Source: Streptomyces sp. MJM8645 (GTDB taxonomy: Bacteria > Actinomycetota > Actinomycetes > Streptomycetales > Streptomycetaceae). From it: a DNA stretch of 64,000 bases. Below are positions 7,658 to 17,284 of the stretch, one piece after another; the first letter of the stretch is position 1; every line of letters begins with the position of its first letter. The stretch spans positions 6,070,501-6,134,500 of the forward strand of contig NZ_LJJF01000001.1 of the NCBI RefSeq assembly GCF_001625365.1, given 5' to 3'. A model generated the notes under the pieces. It did no database searches and had not been told where the DNA came from. It worked only from the letters and a program-made list of their open reading frames with translations. The translations under genes were made by a program, and so were the position numbers.

Positions 7658-8440
7658 TCAGGCGCGCTGATCGGGCGGCAGCAACAGGACGGCGAGCGCG
7701 TCGGCGCAGGCGCGGGCGTGGCCCAGGAACCAGTCCAGGCGGTCGTCGGTCAGGTGCGCCGGGGTCGAGCGGACGGCCAGCGCGAACCGGGCCTGCCCGG
7801 TGCCGTCCAGGACGGGCACGGCCGCCGTCCGCACCCCGGCGGCCGACTCGCCGTCGTTGAGCGCGTACCCGGAGCTCCGGACCTTCGCCAACTCCTCGTC
7901 GAGCCGAGCCGGTTCGGTGATCGTCCGGTCGGTGAACGACGGCAGCGGGCCGAGTGCCGACACCGCCGGCTCCCCCGGGCGCGGCCAGGCCAGCAGTACC
8001 TTGCCGAGCGCCGTGGAGTGCAGCGGCCGGCGCAGCCCGAGGCCGGTGTCCGGGCGGACGGAGGCCCCCACCAGGATGACCGCGTGCGGACCGCTGCGGA
8101 TCGCGAGGTCCGCGGTCGCACCGGTGCGTCGGGACAGCCGGTCCAACTCGGGTGCGGCCAGGTGCAGTCCGCGCTGGTGGAAGGTGAGTTGGCCGAGTTC
8201 GGCGACCGCCGGGCCGAGCCGGTAGCGCGCGGTCTGCTCGTCCTGCTCCAGGAAGCCGGCGCTGACCAGCGTCCGGGCCAGCCGGTGCGCGGTGGAGACC
8301 GAGAGGTCCATCCGGCGGGCCAGGTCGGAGGCGCTCAGGTCGGGGCCGTTGTCGTGGAAGCAGTGCAGCAGCCCCAGCGCACGCTGGACGGCCTGCGCAC
8401 CGGCCGGCGGGCCCTGGACGGCGGTGGCGGCCTCGGCCAT
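7658..8440 (-). CDS. IclR-family transcriptional regulator of the organosulfur block
   Basis: A 260-residue IclR regulator. The N-terminal winged helix is visible (AVQRALGLLHCFHDNGPDLSASDLARRM and STAHRLARTLVSAGFLEQ), followed by the C-terminal effector domain with ADLAIRSGPHAVILVG and LHSTALGKVLLA. The family binds DNA as dimers or tetramers and responds to small organic ligands in the C-terminal domain. It is transcribed divergently from the cysteine leader and desulfinase/Ssu genes and is therefore the likely local regulator of sulfonate use; that is inference from position. The start at 8440 leaves a GAGG ribosome-binding site upstream. Confidence 0.92.
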   Translation of the reverse strand: MAEAATAVQGPPAGAQAVQRALGLLHCFHDNGPDLSASDLARRMDLSVSTAHRLARTLVSAGFLEQDEQTARYRLGPAVAELGQLTFHQRGLHLAAPELDRLSRRTGATADLAIRSGPHAVILVGASVRPDTGLGLRRPLHSTALGKVLLAWPRPGEPAVSALGPLPSFTDRTITEPARLDEELAKVRSSGYALNDGESAAGVRTAAVPVLDGTGQARFALAVRSTPAHLTDDRLDWFLGHARACADALAVLLLPPDQRA

Positions 8441-8685
8441 GGCACCTCGCGTTTCGGTTCGGGAATCCGGCTGGATCACCGGGAGGAGTCTCAGCGTAGG
8501 GCAGCGAGTGCTGCGGGATTGTGTCGACGACGTTGCAATGGAATGGCGTTGATGAACAAGTGATCCCACCATGTGGCAAAACCTTGCCTCCGGCTCGATC
8601 GTCATGGAACGCTCCTCACATCGTGCCGGACGCCCGCCGTCCGGCGCACCACCCGCAACCTCGACCCGCAGGAAGGAGCGACGCC
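8441..8685. promoter_or_regulatory. Divergent promoter region, IclR regulator / organosulfur operon
   Basis: A 245-base divergent intergenic region expected to hold both promoters and the IclR operator. It is locally AT-richer around 8520-8580. The GGAAGGAG at 8671-8678 is the ribosome-binding site of the leader at 8686. I could not pick a single convincing palindrome. Confidence 0.45.
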
Positions 8686-8730
8686 GTGACGATCCACCGG
8701 TTCCTCGCCTCCTGCGCGTGTTGTCGCTGA
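8686..8730 (+). CDS. Cysteine leader peptide (14 aa) of the organosulfur operon
   Basis: A 14-codon ORF encoding MTIHRFLASCACCR, GTG start, with a near-ideal GGAAGGAG ribosome-binding site seven bases upstream. It ends Cys-Ala-Cys-Cys-Arg-stop, with the Cys-Cys pair written TGT TGT. This is the hallmark of a cysteine-sensing attenuator: when charged Cys-tRNA is scarce, ribosomes would stall at the end of the leader and let transcription continue. The operon behind it is for organosulfur use, which fits well. Mechanism is inferred. Confidence 0.82.
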   Translation: MTIHRFLASCACCR

Positions 8731-8908: not shown

Positions 8909-9931
8909 GTGCCCAGCCCTTCCCCCAGTGCCCCCGACACCCTCTGGTTCACCCGCTGCCCGGTGCCCACCGCCACCGGGATCGCCGCCGACCAGGGGTG
9001 GCTCGCCCGCGAGTTCGCCGCCGACGGGATCGCCGTCCGCTCGCTCCAGGACGCCCCGCCGGAGGTGGCCGCCGACCACCACTACACCCACGCGCTCACC
9101 GGACTGTTCCGCGAGGGCGGCAACGTCCCGGCGCTGTGGGCCCGTTCGCGCGGCGAGCGGACCCGGCTGGTCGGCCTCACCTGGATCGAGGAGCGCCAGG
9201 TGGTCCTGGTCCGGGCCGGCAGCGGCGTCACCGGCCCCGGCGACCTGCGCGGGTTGCGGCTGGCGGTCCCACATCATGACATCGGCATCGACTTCTGGCG
9301 GGCGATGGCCCTGGCCGGCTTCCGCGGCGCCCTCGGCCTCGCCGGGCTCACGCTGGACGACGCCGAGCTGGTCGACGTCCCGGGCCTGCCCGGCGGCGGG
9401 CAGTGGGCCGGCGAGCTGGCCGCGCTGCGGGACGGTGTGGTGGACGCCGTGTACGTGAAGGGGGCGCTCGCCGTCGAGGCGGCCCGCCGGGTCGGGGCGG
9501 AGGTGGCCGTGGAGCTGGACGCGGCGCCGGACCGCCGGGCCCGGGTCAACAACGGGACGCCCCGGCCGGTCACCGTCCACCAGCAACTGCTGGACGAGCA
9601 GCCGGAGCTGGTCGCCCGCTTCCTCGCCGTTCTGCTGGAGGCCGCCGACTGGGCGGCCGAGCACCCGGCGGAGGTGGTGCGGATCCTGCGGGCCGAGACC
9701 GGTGCGGGCGCCGAGGGCGTGGCCGGGGCGTACGCACCGGGCAGCCACCGCACCCTGCACCTGGACCTCTCGGCGGAGCGCCTGGAGCTGCTGGCGCAGC
9801 AGGAACGTTTCCTCGGGGACCGGGGATTCCTCGCCTCCCCGGTCGACATCCCCGGCTGGGCCGACCCGGAACCCCTGCGCGCCGCCCACGAGCTGCTGCG
9901 CGAACGGCGCCGCGCCGCGGTGGGCGGCTGA
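8909..9931 (+). CDS. DszB-like sulfinate desulfinase / SsuA-like fold protein
   Basis: A 340-residue protein without signal peptide or lipobox. It resembles 2'-hydroxybiphenyl-2-sulfinate desulfinase DszB: TLWFTRCPVPTA places a Cys at residue 17 where DszB has catalytic Cys27 (SNCPVPNA), and HYTHALTGLFREGGNVPAL keeps the DszB spacing His(58)-x9-Arg(68) followed by xGGxxPxL, matching His60 and Arg70. The family hydrolyses a C-S bond of an aryl sulfinate to release sulfite. It shares its fold with periplasmic sulfonate-binding proteins, so automatic annotation would call it a transporter component, but lack of a signal peptide argues for a cytoplasmic enzyme. First structural gene after the cysteine leader. 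DszA and DszC homologues are absent nearby. Substrate unknown. Confidence 0.8.
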   Translation: MPSPSPSAPDTLWFTRCPVPTATGIAADQGWLAREFAADGIAVRSLQDAPPEVAADHHYTHALTGLFREGGNVPALWARSRGERTRLVGLTWIEERQVVLVRAGSGVTGPGDLRGLRLAVPHHDIGIDFWRAMALAGFRGALGLAGLTLDDAELVDVPGLPGGGQWAGELAALRDGVVDAVYVKGALAVEAARRVGAEVAVELDAAPDRRARVNNGTPRPVTVHQQLLDEQPELVARFLAVLLEAADWAAEHPAEVVRILRAETGAGAEGVAGAYAPGSHRTLHLDLSAERLELLAQQERFLGDRGFLASPVDIPGWADPEPLRAAHELLRERRRAAVGG

Positions 9932-9948
9932 GCGCCGCCCGGCCGCCG

Positions 9949-10030
9949 GCTGACAGATCACAACTAACAGATTTCAGCAGACAGATTTCAGATAACAGAT
10001 TTCGAAAGTTGTCACTTGTCAGCTGTCCTT
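9949..10030. repeat. Heptad repeat element R1, upstream of the lipoprotein gene
   Basis: An AT-rich block made of 7-bp units in register from 9954: CAGATCA, CAACTAA, CAGATTT, CAGCAGA, CAGATTT, CAGATAA, CAGATTT, then an opposite-sense tail (GTTGTCACTTGTCAGCTGTCC) that can pair imperfectly with the start (about 13 of 16 positions). It separates the desulfinase gene from the ssuA-like gene in the same direction. It belongs with the hairpins at 14726, 22991, 30717 and 47403. Confidence 0.8.
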
Positions 10031-10044
10031 CGTTTGGAGACCCC

Positions 10045-11073
10045 GTGAAGACCCCCCGCCTCGCCCTCGCCGCCACCGCGCTGCTCGCCTCCACCGCACT
10101 GGCCGCCTGCGGCTCGTCCGCCGACGGGGCCAAGGCCTCCGCCGACGGCGGGGCCGGCGGCAAGGCCGACGTGGTGCTCCGCCTGCCCGACCCCGGAAAC
10201 AACGGCTTCCTCGCCCGCGGCAAGAAGGACGGCTCGCTGGACAAGGCGCTGGCCGCCGTCCACGCCAAGGTCGCCTGGACCGGCAGCGCGGGCCCGTTCG
10301 CCCCGGCCGCGCAGGCCCTGTCCGCCGACCAACTGGACGTCGCCCTGGGCTCGATCACCTCGGCCGTCGCCGCGCTCGCCCAGAAGCCCGGCTTCAAGCT
10401 GTTCGCCCAGACCGCGCCCGACGGCGTCGGCGAAGGGATCCTGGTGAAGAACGACTCGCCCATCAAGTCCGTCCAGGACCTGGTCGGCCGCAAGGTCGCC
10501 GTCTCCCAGGGCGGCACCAGCGAGTACCTGCTGCTCAAGGCGCTGGAGAAGAACGGCGTCCCGGCCGACAAGGTCGAACGGGTCTACCTGCGCGCCGACC
10601 AGACGGCTGGCGTCTTCAACTCCGGCCAGGTGGACGCCTGGGCGACCTGGAACACCTTCTCCACGCCCACCATCGCCAACGCCGGGGCGCACTTCCTGGC
10701 CAACGGCAAGGAGGTCGGCTCCGACAACTATGCCGTCTGGGCCGTCCGCAACGGCTTCGCCGACAAGCACCCCGAGGTGGTCAAGGCCTTCTACACCTAC
10801 CTGCGCGAGAACGGCCTCAAGGAGAAGGCGGACCCGGCCGCCTACCTCAACGTCTTCACCGACTCCGGCCCGACCGCCGTCACCCCCGCCGAGAAGGACA
10901 TCGCGGTGAACGTCAGTGGGCAGGGCGCCGCCGCGGAGGCCATCTCCGACGCCGACACCGCCCGCTTCGGCACCGTCGCCCGGTTCTTCGCCGACCAGAA
11001 GGTCACCAAGCAACTCGTGGACGTCAAGCCGTACCTGATCGACATCAACAAGCTCGGGGACGGTGCCAAGTGA
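10045..11073 (+). CDS. ssuA: Sulfonate ABC transporter substrate-binding lipoprotein (SsuA-like)
   Basis: A 342-residue extracytoplasmic solute-binding lipoprotein. The N-terminus is a lipoprotein signal with lipobox LAAC (Cys22). The mature part matches SsuA/TauA-type binding proteins: DPGNNGFLARGKKDGSL, then ALSADQLDVALGSITSAVAAL, GRKVAVSQGGTSEYLLLKAL, and SGQVDAWATWNTFS. It should bind aliphatic or aryl sulfonates and deliver them to the permease. The GTG start at 10045 follows a TTTGGAGA ribosome-binding site. The stop overlaps the permease start (GTGA). Confidence 0.9.
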   Translation: MKTPRLALAATALLASTALAACGSSADGAKASADGGAGGKADVVLRLPDPGNNGFLARGKKDGSLDKALAAVHAKVAWTGSAGPFAPAAQALSADQLDVALGSITSAVAALAQKPGFKLFAQTAPDGVGEGILVKNDSPIKSVQDLVGRKVAVSQGGTSEYLLLKALEKNGVPADKVERVYLRADQTAGVFNSGQVDAWATWNTFSTPTIANAGAHFLANGKEVGSDNYAVWAVRNGFADKHPEVVKAFYTYLRENGLKEKADPAAYLNVFTDSGPTAVTPAEKDIAVNVSGQGAAAEAISDADTARFGTVARFFADQKVTKQLVDVKPYLIDINKLGDGAK

Positions 11074-11936
11074 CCACCGCCGCCCCCGAACGCACCACCG
11101 ACGAGACCCGTCTCGCCCTCGACGCCGGACTCGTCACCCCGCACACCAGGCGGCAGCGGCCCCGCCCGCGCGCCCTCGCCGTGATCCTGCGCACCCTGGG
11201 CCCGCTCGCCCTGCTCGGCGGCTGGGCGCTCGCCTCCGCCACCGGCGCCCTCACCCAGGACGTCCTCGCCTCACCCGCCCAGGTCGCCGAAGCCGTCGGC
11301 GAGTTGTGGGGCAACGGCCAGCTCACCGATGCCCTCGGGGTCTCCCTCACCCGGGCCGGCCTCGGCCTGCTCGTCGGCGCGACCACCGGTCTGGTGCTCG
11401 GCGTGGTCACCGGCTTCACCCGGCTCGGCGAGGAACTGCTCGACTCCGCGATCCAGGTGCTGCGCACCGTCCCGTTCCTGGCGCTGGTCCCGCTGTTCAT
11501 GGTGTGGTTCGGCATCACCGAGACCGCGAAGGTCGCCCTGATCGGCGTCGCCACCAGCTTCCCGATGTACGTGTCCGCCTCCGGCGGCGTCCGCAACACC
11601 GACCGCAAGCTGGTCGAGGCGATGCGCAGCTTCGGGCTCGGCCGCTGGGCCATCGTGCGCACCGTCGTCCTGCCGGGCGCGCTGCCCGCCCTGCTGTCCG
11701 GTCTGCGGCTGTCGATGACGCTCAGCGTGATCGCCCTGATCGCCGCCGAGGAGATCAACTCCACCGAGGGGATCGGGTACTTGATGGCCCAGGCCCAGAA
11801 CTACTCGCGCACCGACATCCTCGCCGTCTGCATCCTGATCTACGGGCTGCTCGGCCTCACCGCCGACGCGGTCGTCCGGGTCCTGGAACGCCTCCTGATG
11901 CCGTGGCGCCAGGCCGTCCAGGGAGCAGCCCGATGA
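11070..11936 (+). CDS. ssuC: Sulfonate ABC transporter permease (SsuC-like)
   Basis: A 288-residue inner-membrane permease of the SsuC/TauC/NrtB class, with a charged N-terminus, a first helix around LGPLALLGGWALASATG (about residues 43-60) and the typical cytoplasmic EAA loop VEAMRSFGLGRWAIVRTVVLPGALPAL (about 190-216), which contacts the ATPase. Followed by AEEINSTEGIGYLM, a stretch common to sulfonate/nitrate permeases. Start and stop overlap both neighbours by four bases, so ssuA-ssuC-ssuB are translationally coupled. Confidence 0.92.
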   Translation: MTTAAPERTTDETRLALDAGLVTPHTRRQRPRPRALAVILRTLGPLALLGGWALASATGALTQDVLASPAQVAEAVGELWGNGQLTDALGVSLTRAGLGLLVGATTGLVLGVVTGFTRLGEELLDSAIQVLRTVPFLALVPLFMVWFGITETAKVALIGVATSFPMYVSASGGVRNTDRKLVEAMRSFGLGRWAIVRTVVLPGALPALLSGLRLSMTLSVIALIAAEEINSTEGIGYLMAQAQNYSRTDILAVCILIYGLLGLTADAVVRVLERLLMPWRQAVQGAAR

Positions 11937-12682
11937 GCACCGCCACTTCCGCCACTTCCGTGCCTGCGACCGCCGTGCCTGCGACCGCCGCTCCGGCCGT
12001 CCATCTGCGGGGCCTGCGCCGGGTGTTCGGCACCCGGGCCGTCCTCGACGGTGTCGATCTCTCCATCGCCCGGGGCGAGTTCGTCGCCCTGCTGGGCGCC
12101 AGCGGCACCGGCAAGACCACCCTCCTGCGCATCCTCGGCGCGCTCGACCGGGCCGACGAGGGCGCCGTGCTCGTCCCGCCGGTGCGTACGGTGGTCTTCC
12201 AGGAGCCCCGACTCGTCCCGTCCAAGCGGGTGTTGGCCAACGTCACGGTCGGTCTGCCGCGCGGCGCCGCCACCAGGGAGACCGGACTCAAGGCGCTCGC
12301 CGAGGTCGGCCTGGACAAGCACGCCGACGCCTGGCCGGCCACCCTCTCGGGCGGCGAGGCGCAGCGCGTCGCTCTCGCCCGGGCCCTCGTCCGCGAACCC
12401 CAACTGCTGTTGCTCGACGAGCCGTTCGCCGCACTGGACGCGCTCACCCGACTGCGCATGCAGGACCTGGTCGGCGACCTCGTCCGCCGCCACCGCCCCG
12501 CCGTGCTGCTGGTCACCCACGACGTGGAGGAGGCCGTCCGGCTCGCCGACCGCGTCGCCGTCCTGCGTGACGGCCTGCTCGTCCGCGACGAACCGGTCGC
12601 CGTCGACCACCCCCGCGACCCCGCCGACCCGGCCTTCGCCGACCTGCGCCGCCGACTGCTGGCCGACCTCGGCGTCCACTGA
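11933..12682 (+). CDS. ssuB: Sulfonate ABC transporter ATP-binding protein (SsuB-like)
   Basis: A 249-residue ABC ATPase with Walker A LLGASGTGKTT (about residue 53), Q-loop VVFQEPRL, signature LSGGEAQRVALARAL (about 138), Walker B LLLLDEPFAALD (about 159) and the H-loop VTHDVEEA (about 195). It energises the SsuA-C import system. The first ~20 residues are an Ala/Thr/Ser/Pro low-complexity leader written in short DNA repeats (TGCCTGCGACCGCCG twice). ATGA overlap with ssuC. Confidence 0.95.
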   Translation: MSTATSATSVPATAVPATAAPAVHLRGLRRVFGTRAVLDGVDLSIARGEFVALLGASGTGKTTLLRILGALDRADEGAVLVPPVRTVVFQEPRLVPSKRVLANVTVGLPRGAATRETGLKALAEVGLDKHADAWPATLSGGEAQRVALARALVREPQLLLLDEPFAALDALTRLRMQDLVGDLVRRHRPAVLLVTHDVEEAVRLADRVAVLRDGLLVRDEPVAVDHPRDPADPAFADLRRRLLADLGVH

Positions 12683-12745
12683 CCCGTAAACGGCCCCACC
12701 GAACCGTCCTCAAGACCGCCCGCCCGCACCACCGGAGTTGAACAG

Positions 12746-13651
12746 ATGACCGTGACCCTCGGCGTCCACGCCAGCAACCCCTCGCTCTACTACCTCGCCC
12801 GACTGCCCTACCTGGACGAGGAACTGGCCCCGCTCGGCGAGACCGGCGCCTTCCACCACTACGCCGACGGCACCCGCACCGGTGCGCTGCTCGCCGACGG
12901 CACCATCGACTTCGGCGGGACGGGCTCGACCCCGCCGGTCACCGCCCAGGCGGCCGGCCATGACCTGGTGTACGCGGCGGTCTCCGCACCCCGGCCCGAC
13001 CACGGCGCCCTGCTGGTGCTGGACGGCGGCCCGGTCCAGGCGGTGGCGGACCTCAAGGGCGGCACCGTCGTGCTGGGCATCGGATCCTGGCAGACCCATC
13101 TGCTCGCCAAGGCCCTGCACGCGCAGGGGCTTTCGTACGCCGAGGACGTCACCCCGGTGCGCCCGGCGGCCGGCGAGGACCAGGCTCAGCGGCTGCGCGA
13201 CGGCGAGATCGCGGGGTGGATCGCCCAGGGCGCCGAACTGGCCGCCGCCCGCCGGAGCGGGGGCTTTCGGGAGCTGATCCGCACCGGCGACGTCATCACC
13301 GACCGCTCGGTGTTCTTCACCCGCCGGGACTTCGCGACCGAGCGCCCCGAGGTGGTCGCCGCGATCGCCGCCGCGCTGCGCCGGGCGGACGCCTGGGTGG
13401 CCGCCCACCCGGCCGAGGCGGCCGCGATCGCGGCGGAGCAGTTGGGCGGCTCGGCCGTCGACTGGCAGACGGCGCTGGCCGCACTGCCGTGGCAACTGGA
13501 GCCCGCCACCGCCGGGTTCATCGCCGAGCAGCAGGAGGCCGCGGACATCTTCCACGGGGTCGGGTTCATCGACCGGGCGCTGACCGTCGCCGACGCCCAT
13601 CTGCCCGCGCTGGAGGCCCCGGTGGCCGCCGCGCTCGCCAAGGCGGTCTGA
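12746..13651 (+). CDS. SsuA-like binding-protein fold, no signal peptide
   Basis: A 301-residue protein of the NMT1/SsuA solute-binding fold: VTLGVHASNPSLYYLARLPYLDEEL at the start, then LADGTIDFGGTGSTPPVTAQAAGHDLVYAA and LKGGTVVLGIGSWQTHLLAKAL. It has no signal peptide or lipobox, so it is either cytoplasmic or mis-started; the ATG has a GGAG ribosome-binding site and the conserved fold begins at residue 2, so the start looks right. It lacks the DszB-type Cys seen in the first gene of the block. Placed between the transporter ATPase and SsuD; perhaps a sulfonate-handling or sensing protein. Function not known. Confidence 0.8.
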   Translation: MTVTLGVHASNPSLYYLARLPYLDEELAPLGETGAFHHYADGTRTGALLADGTIDFGGTGSTPPVTAQAAGHDLVYAAVSAPRPDHGALLVLDGGPVQAVADLKGGTVVLGIGSWQTHLLAKALHAQGLSYAEDVTPVRPAAGEDQAQRLRDGEIAGWIAQGAELAAARRSGGFRELIRTGDVITDRSVFFTRRDFATERPEVVAAIAAALRRADAWVAAHPAEAAAIAAEQLGGSAVDWQTALAALPWQLEPATAGFIAEQQEAADIFHGVGFIDRALTVADAHLPALEAPVAAALAKAV

Positions 13652-13654
13652 ACC

Positions 13655-14728
13655 GTGGCCTCCGAAGTCCTCTGGTACATCATCCCGCGCGAGGGCCACT
13701 ACCCGTGGGAGCCGGCCGGCCGCCGCCCGGTGGATCTCCGCTACCTGCAGCAACTGGCGGGAAGCGTCGAGCGGTTGGGCTACACCGGCGCCCTGCTCGC
13801 GACCGACCTCTACGATGTGTGGACGCTCGGCAGTGCGCTCGCGGCCGCCACCACCCCGGCGTTCAAGCCGCTGCTGGCCGTCCACCCGGGGCTGGTCTCG
13901 CCCACCCTGCTGGCAAAGATGGCGCTCAGCTTCGACCGGATGCACGGCGGCCGACTGCGGTTCAACGTGGTCAACGGCTCGACCGCGCAACTGCGCGAGT
14001 ACGGACTGGACGTCGAGCACGACGACCGCTACCGGCTCAGCGCCGAGTACTGGTCGATCGTCAATCGCCTGACCGCCGGCGAAGTCTTCGACCACAAGGG
14101 CGAGTTCTACGAACTGAAGAACGCGGGCGCGAGCCTGCGGGAGCTGGCGCCGGTCCAGCCCGGTGGCATCCCGCTCTGGTTCGGCGGCAGTTCGGCGGCC
14201 GGCATCGAGATGGCGGCCGAGCACGTGGACGTCTACCTGACCTGGGGCGAGCCGCCGCACCTGCTCAAGGAGAAGCTGGACCTGGTCCGGGCGCGGGCCG
14301 CCGCCCACGGCCGGACCCTGCGGATCGGGCTGCGGCTGCACCTGATCGTCCGCGACACCGAGGACGAGGCCTGGGCGGCCGCCGACCGCCTGCTCGACGT
14401 CACCAGCGAGGCCACGTACGCCCGCCAACTGGGCGGCGCGAAGGGTGAGGACGGGGTCGGCTGGCAGCGGCAGTTCCGCCAGCACGGCGGCAAGGTGCCC
14501 GCGCGGGCCCGGGAGTTGGAGGCCTACCCGAACCTCTGGCCGGGAATGAGCCTGTTCCGCCCCGGCCCCGGTACGGCGGTGGTCGGCTCTACGGCCCAGG
14601 TGGTCGAGCGGTTGCAGGAGTTCGAGTCGCTGGGCGTCGACACCTTCATCCTCTCCGGTAACCCCCTGCTGGAGGAGGCCCACCGGGTTGCAGAAACGGT
14701 ACTGCCCGCCCTGGGCATCCGCCGCTGA
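13655..14728 (+). CDS. ssuD: FMNH2-dependent alkanesulfonate monooxygenase (SsuD family)
   Basis: A 357-residue bacterial-luciferase-like monooxygenase. It follows SsuD closely: EVLWYIIPREGHYPW near the start, RPVDLRYLQQLAGSVERLGYTGALL, RLRFNVVNGSTAQLREYGLDVEHDDRY, PLWFGGSSAAGIEMAAEHVDVYLTWGEPP, and IGLRLHLIVRDTEDEAW. The enzyme cleaves the C-S bond of sulfonates with FMNH2 and O2 to give an aldehyde and sulfite. A partner flavin reductase (SsuE) is not seen in the window. The GTG start follows the previous stop by three bases. The stop codon at 14726 is the first of a run of TGA/TAA triplets at 7-base intervals. Confidence 0.93.
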   Translation: MASEVLWYIIPREGHYPWEPAGRRPVDLRYLQQLAGSVERLGYTGALLATDLYDVWTLGSALAAATTPAFKPLLAVHPGLVSPTLLAKMALSFDRMHGGRLRFNVVNGSTAQLREYGLDVEHDDRYRLSAEYWSIVNRLTAGEVFDHKGEFYELKNAGASLRELAPVQPGGIPLWFGGSSAAGIEMAAEHVDVYLTWGEPPHLLKEKLDLVRARAAAHGRTLRIGLRLHLIVRDTEDEAWAAADRLLDVTSEATYARQLGGAKGEDGVGWQRQFRQHGGKVPARARELEAYPNLWPGMSLFRPGPGTAVVGSTAQVVERLQEFESLGVDTFILSGNPLLEEAHRVAETVLPALGIRR

Positions 14729-14808
14729 CGGCTGACGGCTGACGGCTGACGGCTGACAGGTGACAACTAACAGCTGACAGATGATGAAATCTGTCAGCTG
14801 TTAGTTGT
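14726..14808. repeat. Heptad hairpin R2 starting at the ssuD stop codon
   Basis: From the ssuD stop codon onward, TGA or TAA recurs exactly every 7 bases at 14726, 14733, 14740, 14747, 14754, 14761, 14768, 14775 and 14782, so all three frames are closed repeatedly. The last part forms a hairpin with perfect 20-bp arms (14763-14782 and 14789-14808) around a 6-base loop. It lies between the convergent ssuD and aldo/keto reductase genes and probably terminates both. Confidence 0.9.
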
Positions 14809-16264: not shown

Positions 16265-17284
16265 GTGCGGTTCACCGTCTCGTCCCTCGTCGCCAACGGA
16301 CCCGATCCCGTGACCGGCGTCCAGCGCACCCCGCAGGAGAAGCTGTGGAACGTCATCGACCAGGCGGTCGTGGCCGAGCAACTCGGTTACGACGGCTACG
16401 GCGTGGGGGAGCGGCACGGTGAACCGTTCCTCTCTCCGGCGCCGCCGGTGCTGCTCAGCGCGATAGCGGCCCGCACCTCCACCATCCGGCTGTTCACCAC
16501 GGTGACGGTGCTGAGCATCCTGGATCCGGTCCGGGTCGCCGAGGACTACGCCCTGCTCGACCAGCTCTCTGGAGGCAGGGTCGAGTTGATCATCGGCAAG
16601 GGCAACGACCCGCGGCACTTCGACCTGTTCGGCCTGCCCGAGGAGCGCCAGTGGGACGCGCTCGCCGAGAACTACGGCCTGTTGCGCCGACTCTGGCGTG
16701 AGGAGAGGGTGACCTGGGAGGGCTCGACCCGCCCGCCGCTCAAGGACGCGGCCGTGTCGCCGCGCCCGTTGCAGGACCCGATCCCGGTGTGGCACGGCAG
16801 CGCGACCAGCACCCAGTCCACCGACCTGGCCGCCCGCTACGGTGACCCGCTCTTCTCCGCCAACTCCTTCCACCCGCTGGCCAAGTACCGCTCCCTGGTG
16901 GAGCACTACCGCGAGCGCTGGGCGCACTACGGGCGCGATCCGAGGGAGGCCAGGGTCGGTGCGAGCTTCGGCGGGCTGTACGTCGACAAGCGCTCGCAGG
17001 ACGCGGTCGAGGGCTTCCGTCCGTACTGGGACGCGATGTTCAGTTCGGCGGCCGGCCGGCACAACAAGTCGCCGTTCACCTCGTTGGAGGACGCGTTGGA
17101 ACACGGTTCGGCCCTGGTCGGAAGCCCGCAGCAGGTGATCGAGAAGATCCACCGCTATCACGAGGCCTTCGGCAACGAGGTGGTCGGGATCGGAGTCGAC
17201 GCCCTGACGGAAGGGGCGCAGCGGGAGCAGTTGGAGCTGTTCGCGGCCGAGGTCGCCCCGGTGGTCAGGCGCGAGCTTCCGTGA
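16265..17284 (+). CDS. LLM-class flavin-dependent oxidoreductase
   Basis: A 339-residue luciferase-like monooxygenase/oxidoreductase. Landmarks: VVAEQLGYDGYGVGERH, AARTSTIRLFTTVTVLSILDPVRVAEDYALLDQLSGGRVELIIGKGNDPRHF, and late VGSPQQVIEKIHRYHEAFG. These enzymes use FMNH2 or F420. The GTG start follows AAGGAGA. Given the cysteine-type leader upstream and the nearby Ssu genes, an organosulfur substrate is plausible but not shown. It appears monocistronic. Confidence 0.92.
   Translation: MRFTVSSLVANGPDPVTGVQRTPQEKLWNVIDQAVVAEQLGYDGYGVGERHGEPFLSPAPPVLLSAIAARTSTIRLFTTVTVLSILDPVRVAEDYALLDQLSGGRVELIIGKGNDPRHFDLFGLPEERQWDALAENYGLLRRLWREERVTWEGSTRPPLKDAAVSPRPLQDPIPVWHGSATSTQSTDLAARYGDPLFSANSFHPLAKYRSLVEHYRERWAHYGRDPREARVGASFGGLYVDKRSQDAVEGFRPYWDAMFSSAAGRHNKSPFTSLEDALEHGSALVGSPQQVIEKIHRYHEAFGNEVVGIGVDALTEGAQREQLELFAAEVAPVVRRELP

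Follow-up and report, generated by a model that had tools for sequence, protein, structure and literature searches.

Most of what is known of the desulfinase DszB comes from the dsz operons that serve in fuel desulfurization, and in Escherichia coli SsuA, SsuC, SsuB and SsuD are encoded together in the operon ssuEADCB. Here we describe a compact plus-strand operon at positions 8909-14728 of a window of 64,000 nucleotides (the whole stretch of DNA that was analyzed; contig NZ_LJJF01000001.1, positions 6,070,501 to 6,134,500) from Streptomyces sp. MJM8645, in which a gene for a DszB-type protein is followed by genes for SsuA, SsuC, SsuB, a second SsuA-fold protein called SBP2 and an SsuD-like monooxygenase.

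The closest described system is the bds operon of Gordonia terrae C-6. According to the available sections of the report (PMC3868597), the genes GTC6_01585-01620 lie in the order binding protein, hypothetical protein, bdsC, bdsB, bdsA, ATPase, permease and binding protein, where bdsC encodes an alkanesulfonate monooxygenase said to carry out the DszA step, bdsB a monooxygenase dependent on reduced flavin mononucleotide (FMNH2) and bdsA the desulfinase. The same sections state that all eight genes are up 29- to 54-fold on benzothiophene as measured by reverse transcription quantitative PCR, and that benzothiophene is converted to o-hydroxystyrene in extracts of E. coli carrying bdsABC with DszD, NADH (reduced nicotinamide adenine dinucleotide) and FMN. 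In Rhodococcus IGTS8, the excerpted source (PMC8557817) lists peg4799 (SsuA), 4801 (SsuB), 4802 ('SsuA/DszB'), 4804 (SsuD) and 4806 (SsuA) as up in dibenzothiophene culture. Two further reports, in the portions accessible, describe a Gordonia strain that uses dibenzothiophene without a DszB analogue (PMC11852219) and a dszA homologue that ends an ssu operon with no dszB (PMC6395730).

The window operon has in common with the bds operon, as the latter is described in those sections, a desulfinase, an SsuD-like monooxygenase and an Ssu-type transporter. The bds genes have neighboring locus numbers, with a binding-protein gene at each end, and are induced when benzothiophene supplies the sulfur. 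The bds operon contains a second flavin monooxygenase and a hypothetical gene between bdsC and the last binding protein, whereas the window operon contains neither. The IGTS8 locus, as far as its gene numbers are given, is alike in that the DszB-like protein is numbered between SsuB and SsuD with SsuA at both ends, but its DszB-like gene comes after SsuB, whereas that of the window comes first. Compared to ssuEADCB, with which it has homologues of SsuA, SsuC, SsuB and SsuD in one operon in common, the window operon has a desulfinase and an SsuA-like protein of the cytosol in addition, lacks SsuE, and has an SsuD-like enzyme without Cys54 and Tyr331. Therefore, the combination of genes is not the anomaly that a preliminary description of this DNA had taken it to be, because a design of desulfinase, Ssu-type transporter and flavin oxygenase is already known from Gordonia (PMC3868597) and Rhodococcus (PMC8557817), in the parts of these sources available. 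What is new here is that there is a single monooxygenase, that an SsuA-like partner is conserved in the cytosol, that there is a leader peptide and that the family is broad.

The DszB-type protein

As judged from sequence and structural model, the product of the gene at 8909-9931 is a DszB-type protein of the cytosol and a predicted sulfinate desulfinase. When the PDB sequences were searched with phmmer (E ≤ 0.001), it was found that there were two distinct matches, both to DszB (2de2, E 8.9e-16; 2de3/2de4, 2.6e-14), and none to SsuA; therefore, the likeness to DszB is far beyond chance. A BLAST comparison with a mycobacterial DszB encoded on a plasmid gave 30% identity over 365 columns (E 1.6e-26). 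A model was predicted with AlphaFold from an alignment of the window and 26 stretches taken from 25 of 50 related loci, with a predicted local distance difference test (pLDDT) value of 90.4 and a predicted template-modeling (pTM) score of 0.90. DszB occupied ranks 1-3 in a Foldseek search with this model (4.4e-21 to 2e-20), followed by SsuA (9.5e-16), and VIA-align gave a Z of 31.1 for DszB (root-mean-square deviation 2.8 Å, 302 residues) versus 26.0 for the best SsuA, so that the structural overlay called for in the preliminary description came out in favor of DszB. The 24 DszB-like rows formed one group (100/100) that joined DszB, apart from SsuA and SBP2 (100/99), in a tree that contained a single DszB row and carried a long-branch warning, above all for the SsuA of locus L044.

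In the part of the source available (PMC12168087), the active-site residues of DszB are Cys27, His60, Arg70 and Gly73, and these align with Cys17, His58, Arg68 and Gly71 of the window protein. The preliminary description had placed Cys17, His58 and Arg68 in the spacing of DszB. This is exact for His58-Arg68 (10 residues, as for His60-Arg70), and Arg68-Gly71 is also equal to Arg70-Gly73 (3 residues), but the Cys-His spacing differs, at 41 in the window protein versus 33 in DszB. We aligned 67 rows of relatives, of which 2 are fragments and 2 are repeats of other rows. The Cys column had 64 Cys, 1 Ser and 2 gaps, the His column 64 His, 1 Asp, 1 Ile and 1 gap, the Arg column 66 Arg and 1 gap, and the Gly71 column 65 Gly and 2 gaps. 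A chance match of the Cys, His and Arg residues was therefore rejected on the basis of the phmmer search, this alignment and the structural overlay. Two paralogues depart from this active site: one from Burkholderia (L057, 6275-7300, minus strand) has Ser for Cys and Ile for His, and one from Sphingobium (L053, 6516-7496) has Asp for His; both records also hold other DszB-like copies with the full set of residues.

The window protein is thus like DszB in its fold, in the Cys/His/Arg/Gly active site and in being an SsuA-fold hydrolase without a signal peptide, and differs from it in sequence (about 30% identity), in the absence of adjoining DszA and DszC genes, and in the VKG and RxNNGTPRPxTV motifs, which are absent from DszB. 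The maximal 15-residue hydropathy was 0.69 for the DszB-type protein, 0.53 for SBP2 and 1.96 for the SsuA lipoprotein, and a DszB scores 1.38. The possibility that the protein is a mis-started secreted binding protein was rejected, because the longest open reading frame (ORF), from 8804, has no hydrophobic N terminus. The fold, the catalytic residues and the absence of a signal peptide all support the earlier proposal of a DszB-like desulfinase (as a prediction) and not a secreted binding protein.

The Pfam call for this protein is NMT1, and the NCBIfam SsuA_fam score is far under the cut-off, because of which relatives are annotated as ATP-binding cassette (ABC) transporter binding proteins: in the plasmid records (40 listed of 86), 12 of the 13 annotated rows are labelled ABC transporter substrate-binding protein.

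The operon and its relatives

The Pfam, NCBIfam and PDB matches of the neighboring genes bear out their preliminary identification as SsuA, SsuC, SsuB and SsuD types. Genes of the DszA or DszC type, which the preliminary description had stated to be missing, were indeed not found among the operon genes by Pfam or NCBIfam, and the operon is not of the 4S (dsz) kind. The SsuA/SsuC and SsuC/SsuB genes overlap by 4 bases each, and the gap between the SBP2 and SsuD-like genes is 3 bases. Outside the operon, the same genome encodes a protein of the NtaA/DszA family with 39% identity to a DszA, and no DszA-like match was found closer than 1.2 Mb; a DszC query matched 14 places at 25-28% identity (best E 2.6e-12). 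With the DszB-type protein as the query, a single place in the genome was found at E ≤ 0.01. One own-genome stretch (L076, G000:C1:4852500-4867500) contains two adjoining NtaA/DszA-type matches, one of which is the 39% match to a DszA.

The search for related loci gave 50 loci, 49 of which are actinobacterial by title and one from Sphingomonas. The conservation of the operon was counted in 62 loci (L002-L051, L058 and L091-L101, which adds a Streptomyces plasmid and further genomes), and for a partner gene to be counted it had to lie within 8.5 kb on the same strand and to exceed a minimum identity, set at 30-55% depending on the gene. Outside this count were L001, L052 and L077-L090 (repeats or short stretches), L102 (no DszB-like match), L053-L057 (proteobacterial plasmids), L059 (the DszB yardstick), L060-L076 (own-genome stretches) and L103 onward (60 short stretches plus L163-L168). 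It was found that all five partners (SsuA, SsuC, SsuB, SBP2 and SsuD-like) are present in 54 of the 62 loci, and the SsuD-like gene in 56. Five of the eight loci without all partners have short flanks (L040, L043, L044, L097 and L098; the others are L051, L099 and L101), and the Ssu-type genes of L044 are on the opposite strand. DszC-like matches (E < 1e-10) within 8.5 kb were present in four loci: in L030, L032 and L042 on the opposite strand at 30-33% identity, and in L101 as two matches (39 and 33%) together with a DszA-like gene. The Streptomyces diastatochromogenes copy (L048, 8001-8950) is split in two matches, perhaps by a frameshift or an assembly error.

The gene order in seven loci of family f3 (L100 and L163-L168) is SsuA, SsuC, SsuB, DszB-type, a short luciferase-like monooxygenase (LLM), SsuD-like and SBP2. 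Because this order is that of the Gordonia gene list, the window operon is taken as a relative of bds, a link made through gene order and annotation. The second, shorter LLM gene is present in, for example, L030, L020, L094, L100 and L163-L168 (Pfam Bac_luciferase for L094 and L163). In the five family f3 loci read for it (L100, L163, L164, L167 and L168), SBP2 is preceded by a class II aldolase-like ORF, and an aldolase-like gene is in or beside the operon in L044 and L053 (Pfam Aldolase_II for L163 and L044; annotated as an epimerase in L053); its product may handle the carbon product. In the Nonomuraea and Actinomadura loci, the upstream half (DszB-type, SsuA, SsuC and SsuB) is nearer to that of the window, whereas the downstream half (short LLM, SsuD-like and SBP2) is of another type, and in the tree the SBP2 of L020 groups with G712 and family f3 (99/97), whereas its DszB-like protein groups with that of the window (93/89). 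The operon halves seem, from these sequence relationships, to have been exchanged as modules.

A search with the DszB-type protein (P0007) at E ≤ 1e-10 matched 2 of 396 phylum-wide genomes, including the window's own, and a profile search at E ≤ 1e-15 matched 14 of 394 class-wide genomes; the weakest of the latter matches (G735, 1.2e-17) is probably not of the DszB-type family, there being no DszB-like match in its region. At E ≤ 1e-40, DszB-type matches were found in 60 of 297 genomes of the window's own family and in two other actinobacterial families, in 81 of 341 genomes of f89 and 54 of 401 of f3; we infer that f89 is Streptosporangiaceae-like and f3 Mycobacteriaceae-like. These numbers, together with the annotation of 12 of 13 relatives as binding proteins, suggest that the desulfination of sulfinates belongs to the ordinary scavenging of sulfur in soil and is hidden by annotation, and that such a pool of relatives was the source of DszB. 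There may be faster desulfinases among these relatives.

The plasmid records with DszB-like matches are mostly rhizobial. On the Sphingobium (L053) and Sinorhizobium (L055) plasmids, DszB-like genes are beside NtaA/DszA-type monooxygenases, and L055 also has DszC-like genes; going by these sequences, both sets are candidate Dsz-like pathways. The Sinorhizobium meliloti pSymA record (L056, 9001-12312) has a DszB-like gene and a nearby second DszB-like match in two pieces.

The second SsuA-fold protein, SBP2, was modeled with a pLDDT of 95, and the top Foldseek match was SsuA, with DszB at rank 28. The preliminary description had singled out this gene, at 12746, for its lack of a signal peptide, and it is a real, conserved oddity: SBP2 is present as often as the transporter (54 of 62 loci), its relatives form one tree group (99/96), and of 26 aligned rows, the 22 that extend far enough all have the same unsignalled start, as do L015 and L019. 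The possibility that SBP2 is a second DszB was rejected, because the PDB and structure matches favor SsuA and there is no Cys at the N-terminal position. A missed signal peptide was also rejected, because 12746 is the first start after a stop codon and the relatives begin alike.

Leader, proposed pathway and alternatives

A short ORF for a Cys-rich leader peptide precedes the operon. Each of the 15 loci of the Kitasatospora type (the window plus 14 loci with a desulfinase identity of at least 81%) has one that begins with GTG and is rich in Cys at its end, with its length shifting by whole codons and the frame kept. A leader of the type RRHIDLxRV is upstream in 18 further loci, and the three tested, from Streptomyces, all scored above the cut-off of NCBIfam model NF042934 (31.7-35.2 bits; cut-off 27). 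In total, a leader ORF was accepted in 33 of 65 loci, and a Cys criterion picked out 16 of 67 upstream regions versus 5.8% of first-order random sequences. The known actinobacterial Cys leaders (NF042934, Ms4527A and Ms5788A) are likewise short Cys-ended ORFs upstream of a sulfur operon, but the two Kitasatospora-type leaders tested (window and L006) matched none of the NCBIfam leader models, and their sequences possibly represent an undescribed type of Cys leader. In mycobacteria, Cys-rich short ORFs regulate genes by cysteine, according to the excerpt available (PMC9094748, citing Canestrari 2020). The leader ORF points to cysteine-controlled sulfur scavenging, and is evidence, independent of the operon genes, that the operon serves sulfur supply. 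Two candidates were rejected: an RNA attenuator hairpin at the leader was not shown, since there was no excess folding stability (z 1.13), and a Cys-leader regulon in the same genome was not accepted, with 10 pattern matches versus 4 in the reversed control.

The SsuD-like enzyme (P0003) is 45% identical to E. coli SsuD (E 1e-87 to 1e-93), with scores under the NCBIfam cut-offs, and 39% identical to the SsuD-like protein of the bds-ordered locus L163. It retains the residues aligned to Arg226, His228 and Arg297, and has Leu for Cys54 and Asn for Tyr331, two residues of SsuD that we take to be numbered in this way and to be important. A search of open-licence papers, in which absence does not mean absence in print, gave no literature on SsuD Cys54 and Tyr331. 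A second SsuD elsewhere in the genome is 52.5% identical to E. coli SsuD and has a Cys at the Cys54 position and a Met at Tyr331.

We think that this is probably a bds-type sulfur-scavenging operon, by which an organosulfur anion would be imported, oxidized to a sulfinate and desulfinated to sulfite. A cysteine shortage would cause ribosomes to stall on the Cys-rich leader ORF, with the operon expressed as a result, and the divergently encoded IclR-family protein could be a second control. By analogy with their families, SsuA, SsuC and SsuB would import the anion, and the SsuD-like flavin monooxygenase would oxidize it to a sulfinate, as DszA and BdsC are said to do with sulfones. In the DszB-type enzyme, His58, Arg68 and Gly71 would hold the sulfinate and Cys17 would cleave the C-S bond, giving sulfite for cysteine synthesis and a desulfinated product. 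SBP2, with its SsuA-type fold, probably binds a sulfonate or sulfinate in the cell, as a carrier or accessory protein, although this role is speculative. The preliminary description had already suggested entry by SsuABC and a sulfinate perhaps formed by SsuD, and this, with the SsuD-like enzyme in that role, is the best reading. Because SsuD acting on a true sulfonate already gives sulfite by itself, a dedicated desulfinase makes the most sense after a sulfinate-yielding step. The leader-controlled operon offers a handle for finding the natural substrate.

Several observations weigh against a bds-type operon or against parts of the pathway. A sulfonate substrate would need no desulfinase, given the release of sulfite by SsuD, and the window operon has neither the second monooxygenase nor the aldolase that the bds-ordered loci contain. 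Because P0003 shares more identity with E. coli SsuD (45%) than with the protein of L163 (39%), the bds reaction is not simply transferable, and the published bds primer pieces match none of the loci L091-L168 (best 5 mismatches forward and 4 reverse). In 32 of 65 loci, no leader ORF of either type was accepted (a looser Cys pattern also matched 9 of these, L021, L025, L091, L096, L100 and L163-L166, which were discounted as unlike leaders), and the leader region of the window folds no better than shuffles. Lys184 and Arg219, present in 65 of 67 rows of the subfamily, are absent from DszB and argue against a hydrophobic substrate like that of DszB. The NNGTPRP segment, present in most rows, is also absent from DszB, and we infer a pocket that is more basic and more polar than that of DszB. 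Given these differences, the substrate of the window protein probably differs from that of DszB, and the aryl sulfinate proposed in the preliminary description is a tentative candidate.

Alternatively, the two enzymes could work in parallel branches, with the desulfinase acting on imported or by-product sulfinates and the SsuD-like enzyme separately desulfonating sulfonates from the same transporter. We consider this rather unlikely. The 45% identity of P0003 to E. coli SsuD and the retained Arg226, His228 and Arg297 positions would fit such branches, as would the finding that the partner monooxygenase varies between lineages whereas the DszB-type protein stays; however, the closer SsuD in the genome, with its Cys at the Cys54 position, would make a second plain SsuD unneeded, and the Leu and Asn of P0003 at the presumably important Cys54 and Tyr331 positions also speak against it, although the other SsuD of the genome lacks Tyr331 as well. 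It is improbable that the DszB-type protein is a non-enzyme, such as a cytosolic sulfonate-binding sensor or carrier with a retained Cys-His-Arg pocket. Such a role would be compatible with the SsuA fold, with the NMT1 call and sub-cut-off SsuA_fam score, and with the precedent of SBP2 as an unsignalled SsuA-fold protein in the same operon, but the Cys, His and Arg persist in almost every row, across a range from actinobacteria to rhizobia, and the protein groups with DszB and not SsuA in the PDB matches, the overlay and the tree. The same fold serves other chemistry in Thi5, MqnD and 4,5-dihydroxyphthalate decarboxylase. The presence of these enzymes in the structure list and the conserved motifs specific to the subfamily would be in keeping with a hydrolase of another substrate class (for example, one acting on a C-C or C-N bond) with the same Cys/His/Arg pocket. 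We regard this as very improbable, because the sulfonate-type transporter, the SsuD-like partner and the Cys leader all indicate sulfur, and the Z of 31 for DszB is clearly above the 15-18 of those enzymes.

A more far-reaching proposal, which goes beyond bds-type scavenging and which we hold to be doubtful, is that the operon holds three proteins of the SsuA fold, each with a fate of its own: an importing lipoprotein, a cytosolic desulfinase, and the cytosolic SBP2, kept unsignalled across several actinobacterial lineages. SBP2 would then be either another enzyme, so far undescribed, or a protein that hands over substrate in the cytosol and has DszB-type desulfinases as its only partners, in a cysteine-controlled pathway for a new natural class of sulfinate or sulfone.

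Other features of the locus

The positions of the operon genes and of the features on either side are given in Table 1.

Table 1. Genes and sequence elements at the operon, in window coordinates
Feature	Position	Strand	Remarks
IclR-family regulator	7658..8440	-	divergent; ATG start at about 8440; Pfam IclR_C 5e-31, HTH_IclR 8e-16
Shine-Dalgarno-like sequence of the leader ORF	8671..8678	+	GGAAGGAG in 13 of 15 Kitasatospora-type loci; GGAGGGAG in L013 and L014
Cys-rich leader peptide ORF	8686..8730	+	MTIHRFLASCACCR and stop; GTG start; 14 codons; after a strong Shine-Dalgarno sequence
DszB-type sulfinate desulfinase (P0007), predicted	8909..9931	+	GTG start; 340 amino acids; Cys17, His58, Arg68, Gly71; no signal peptide
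SsuA-type substrate-binding lipoprotein	10045..11073	+	LAAC lipobox; hydrophobic N terminus
SsuC-type permease	11070..11936	+	NCBIfam SsuC model 1.5e-63, under its cut-off
SsuB-type ATPase	11933..12682	+	NCBIfam aliphatic sulfonate ATPase model 4.5e-64, under its cut-off
SBP2, second SsuA-fold protein	12746..13651	+	no signal peptide, no lipobox; best PDB match SsuA 2x26
SsuD-like FMNH2-dependent monooxygenase, LLM class (P0003)	13655..14728	+	45% identity to E. coli SsuD
Perfect 20-base inverted repeat	14763..14808	.	3′ of the operon, between the convergent SsuD-like gene and an aldo/keto reductase-like ORF

A minus-strand IclR homologue is upstream in 48 of the 52 loci listed and is missing in L036, L044, L046 and L050. 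The inverted repeat at 14763-14808 is a possible bidirectional terminator; it was not listed by the terminator scan, and the promoter and terminator scan of this region yielded nothing useful. Short related repeats, AACTAACAG and ACAGATTTCAG, lie between the desulfinase and SsuA genes. A second luciferase-like monooxygenase gene (CE1758-like, P0005) lies 1.5 kb beyond the operon, at 16265-17284 of the window, and several Kitasatospora-type loci also have it close by.

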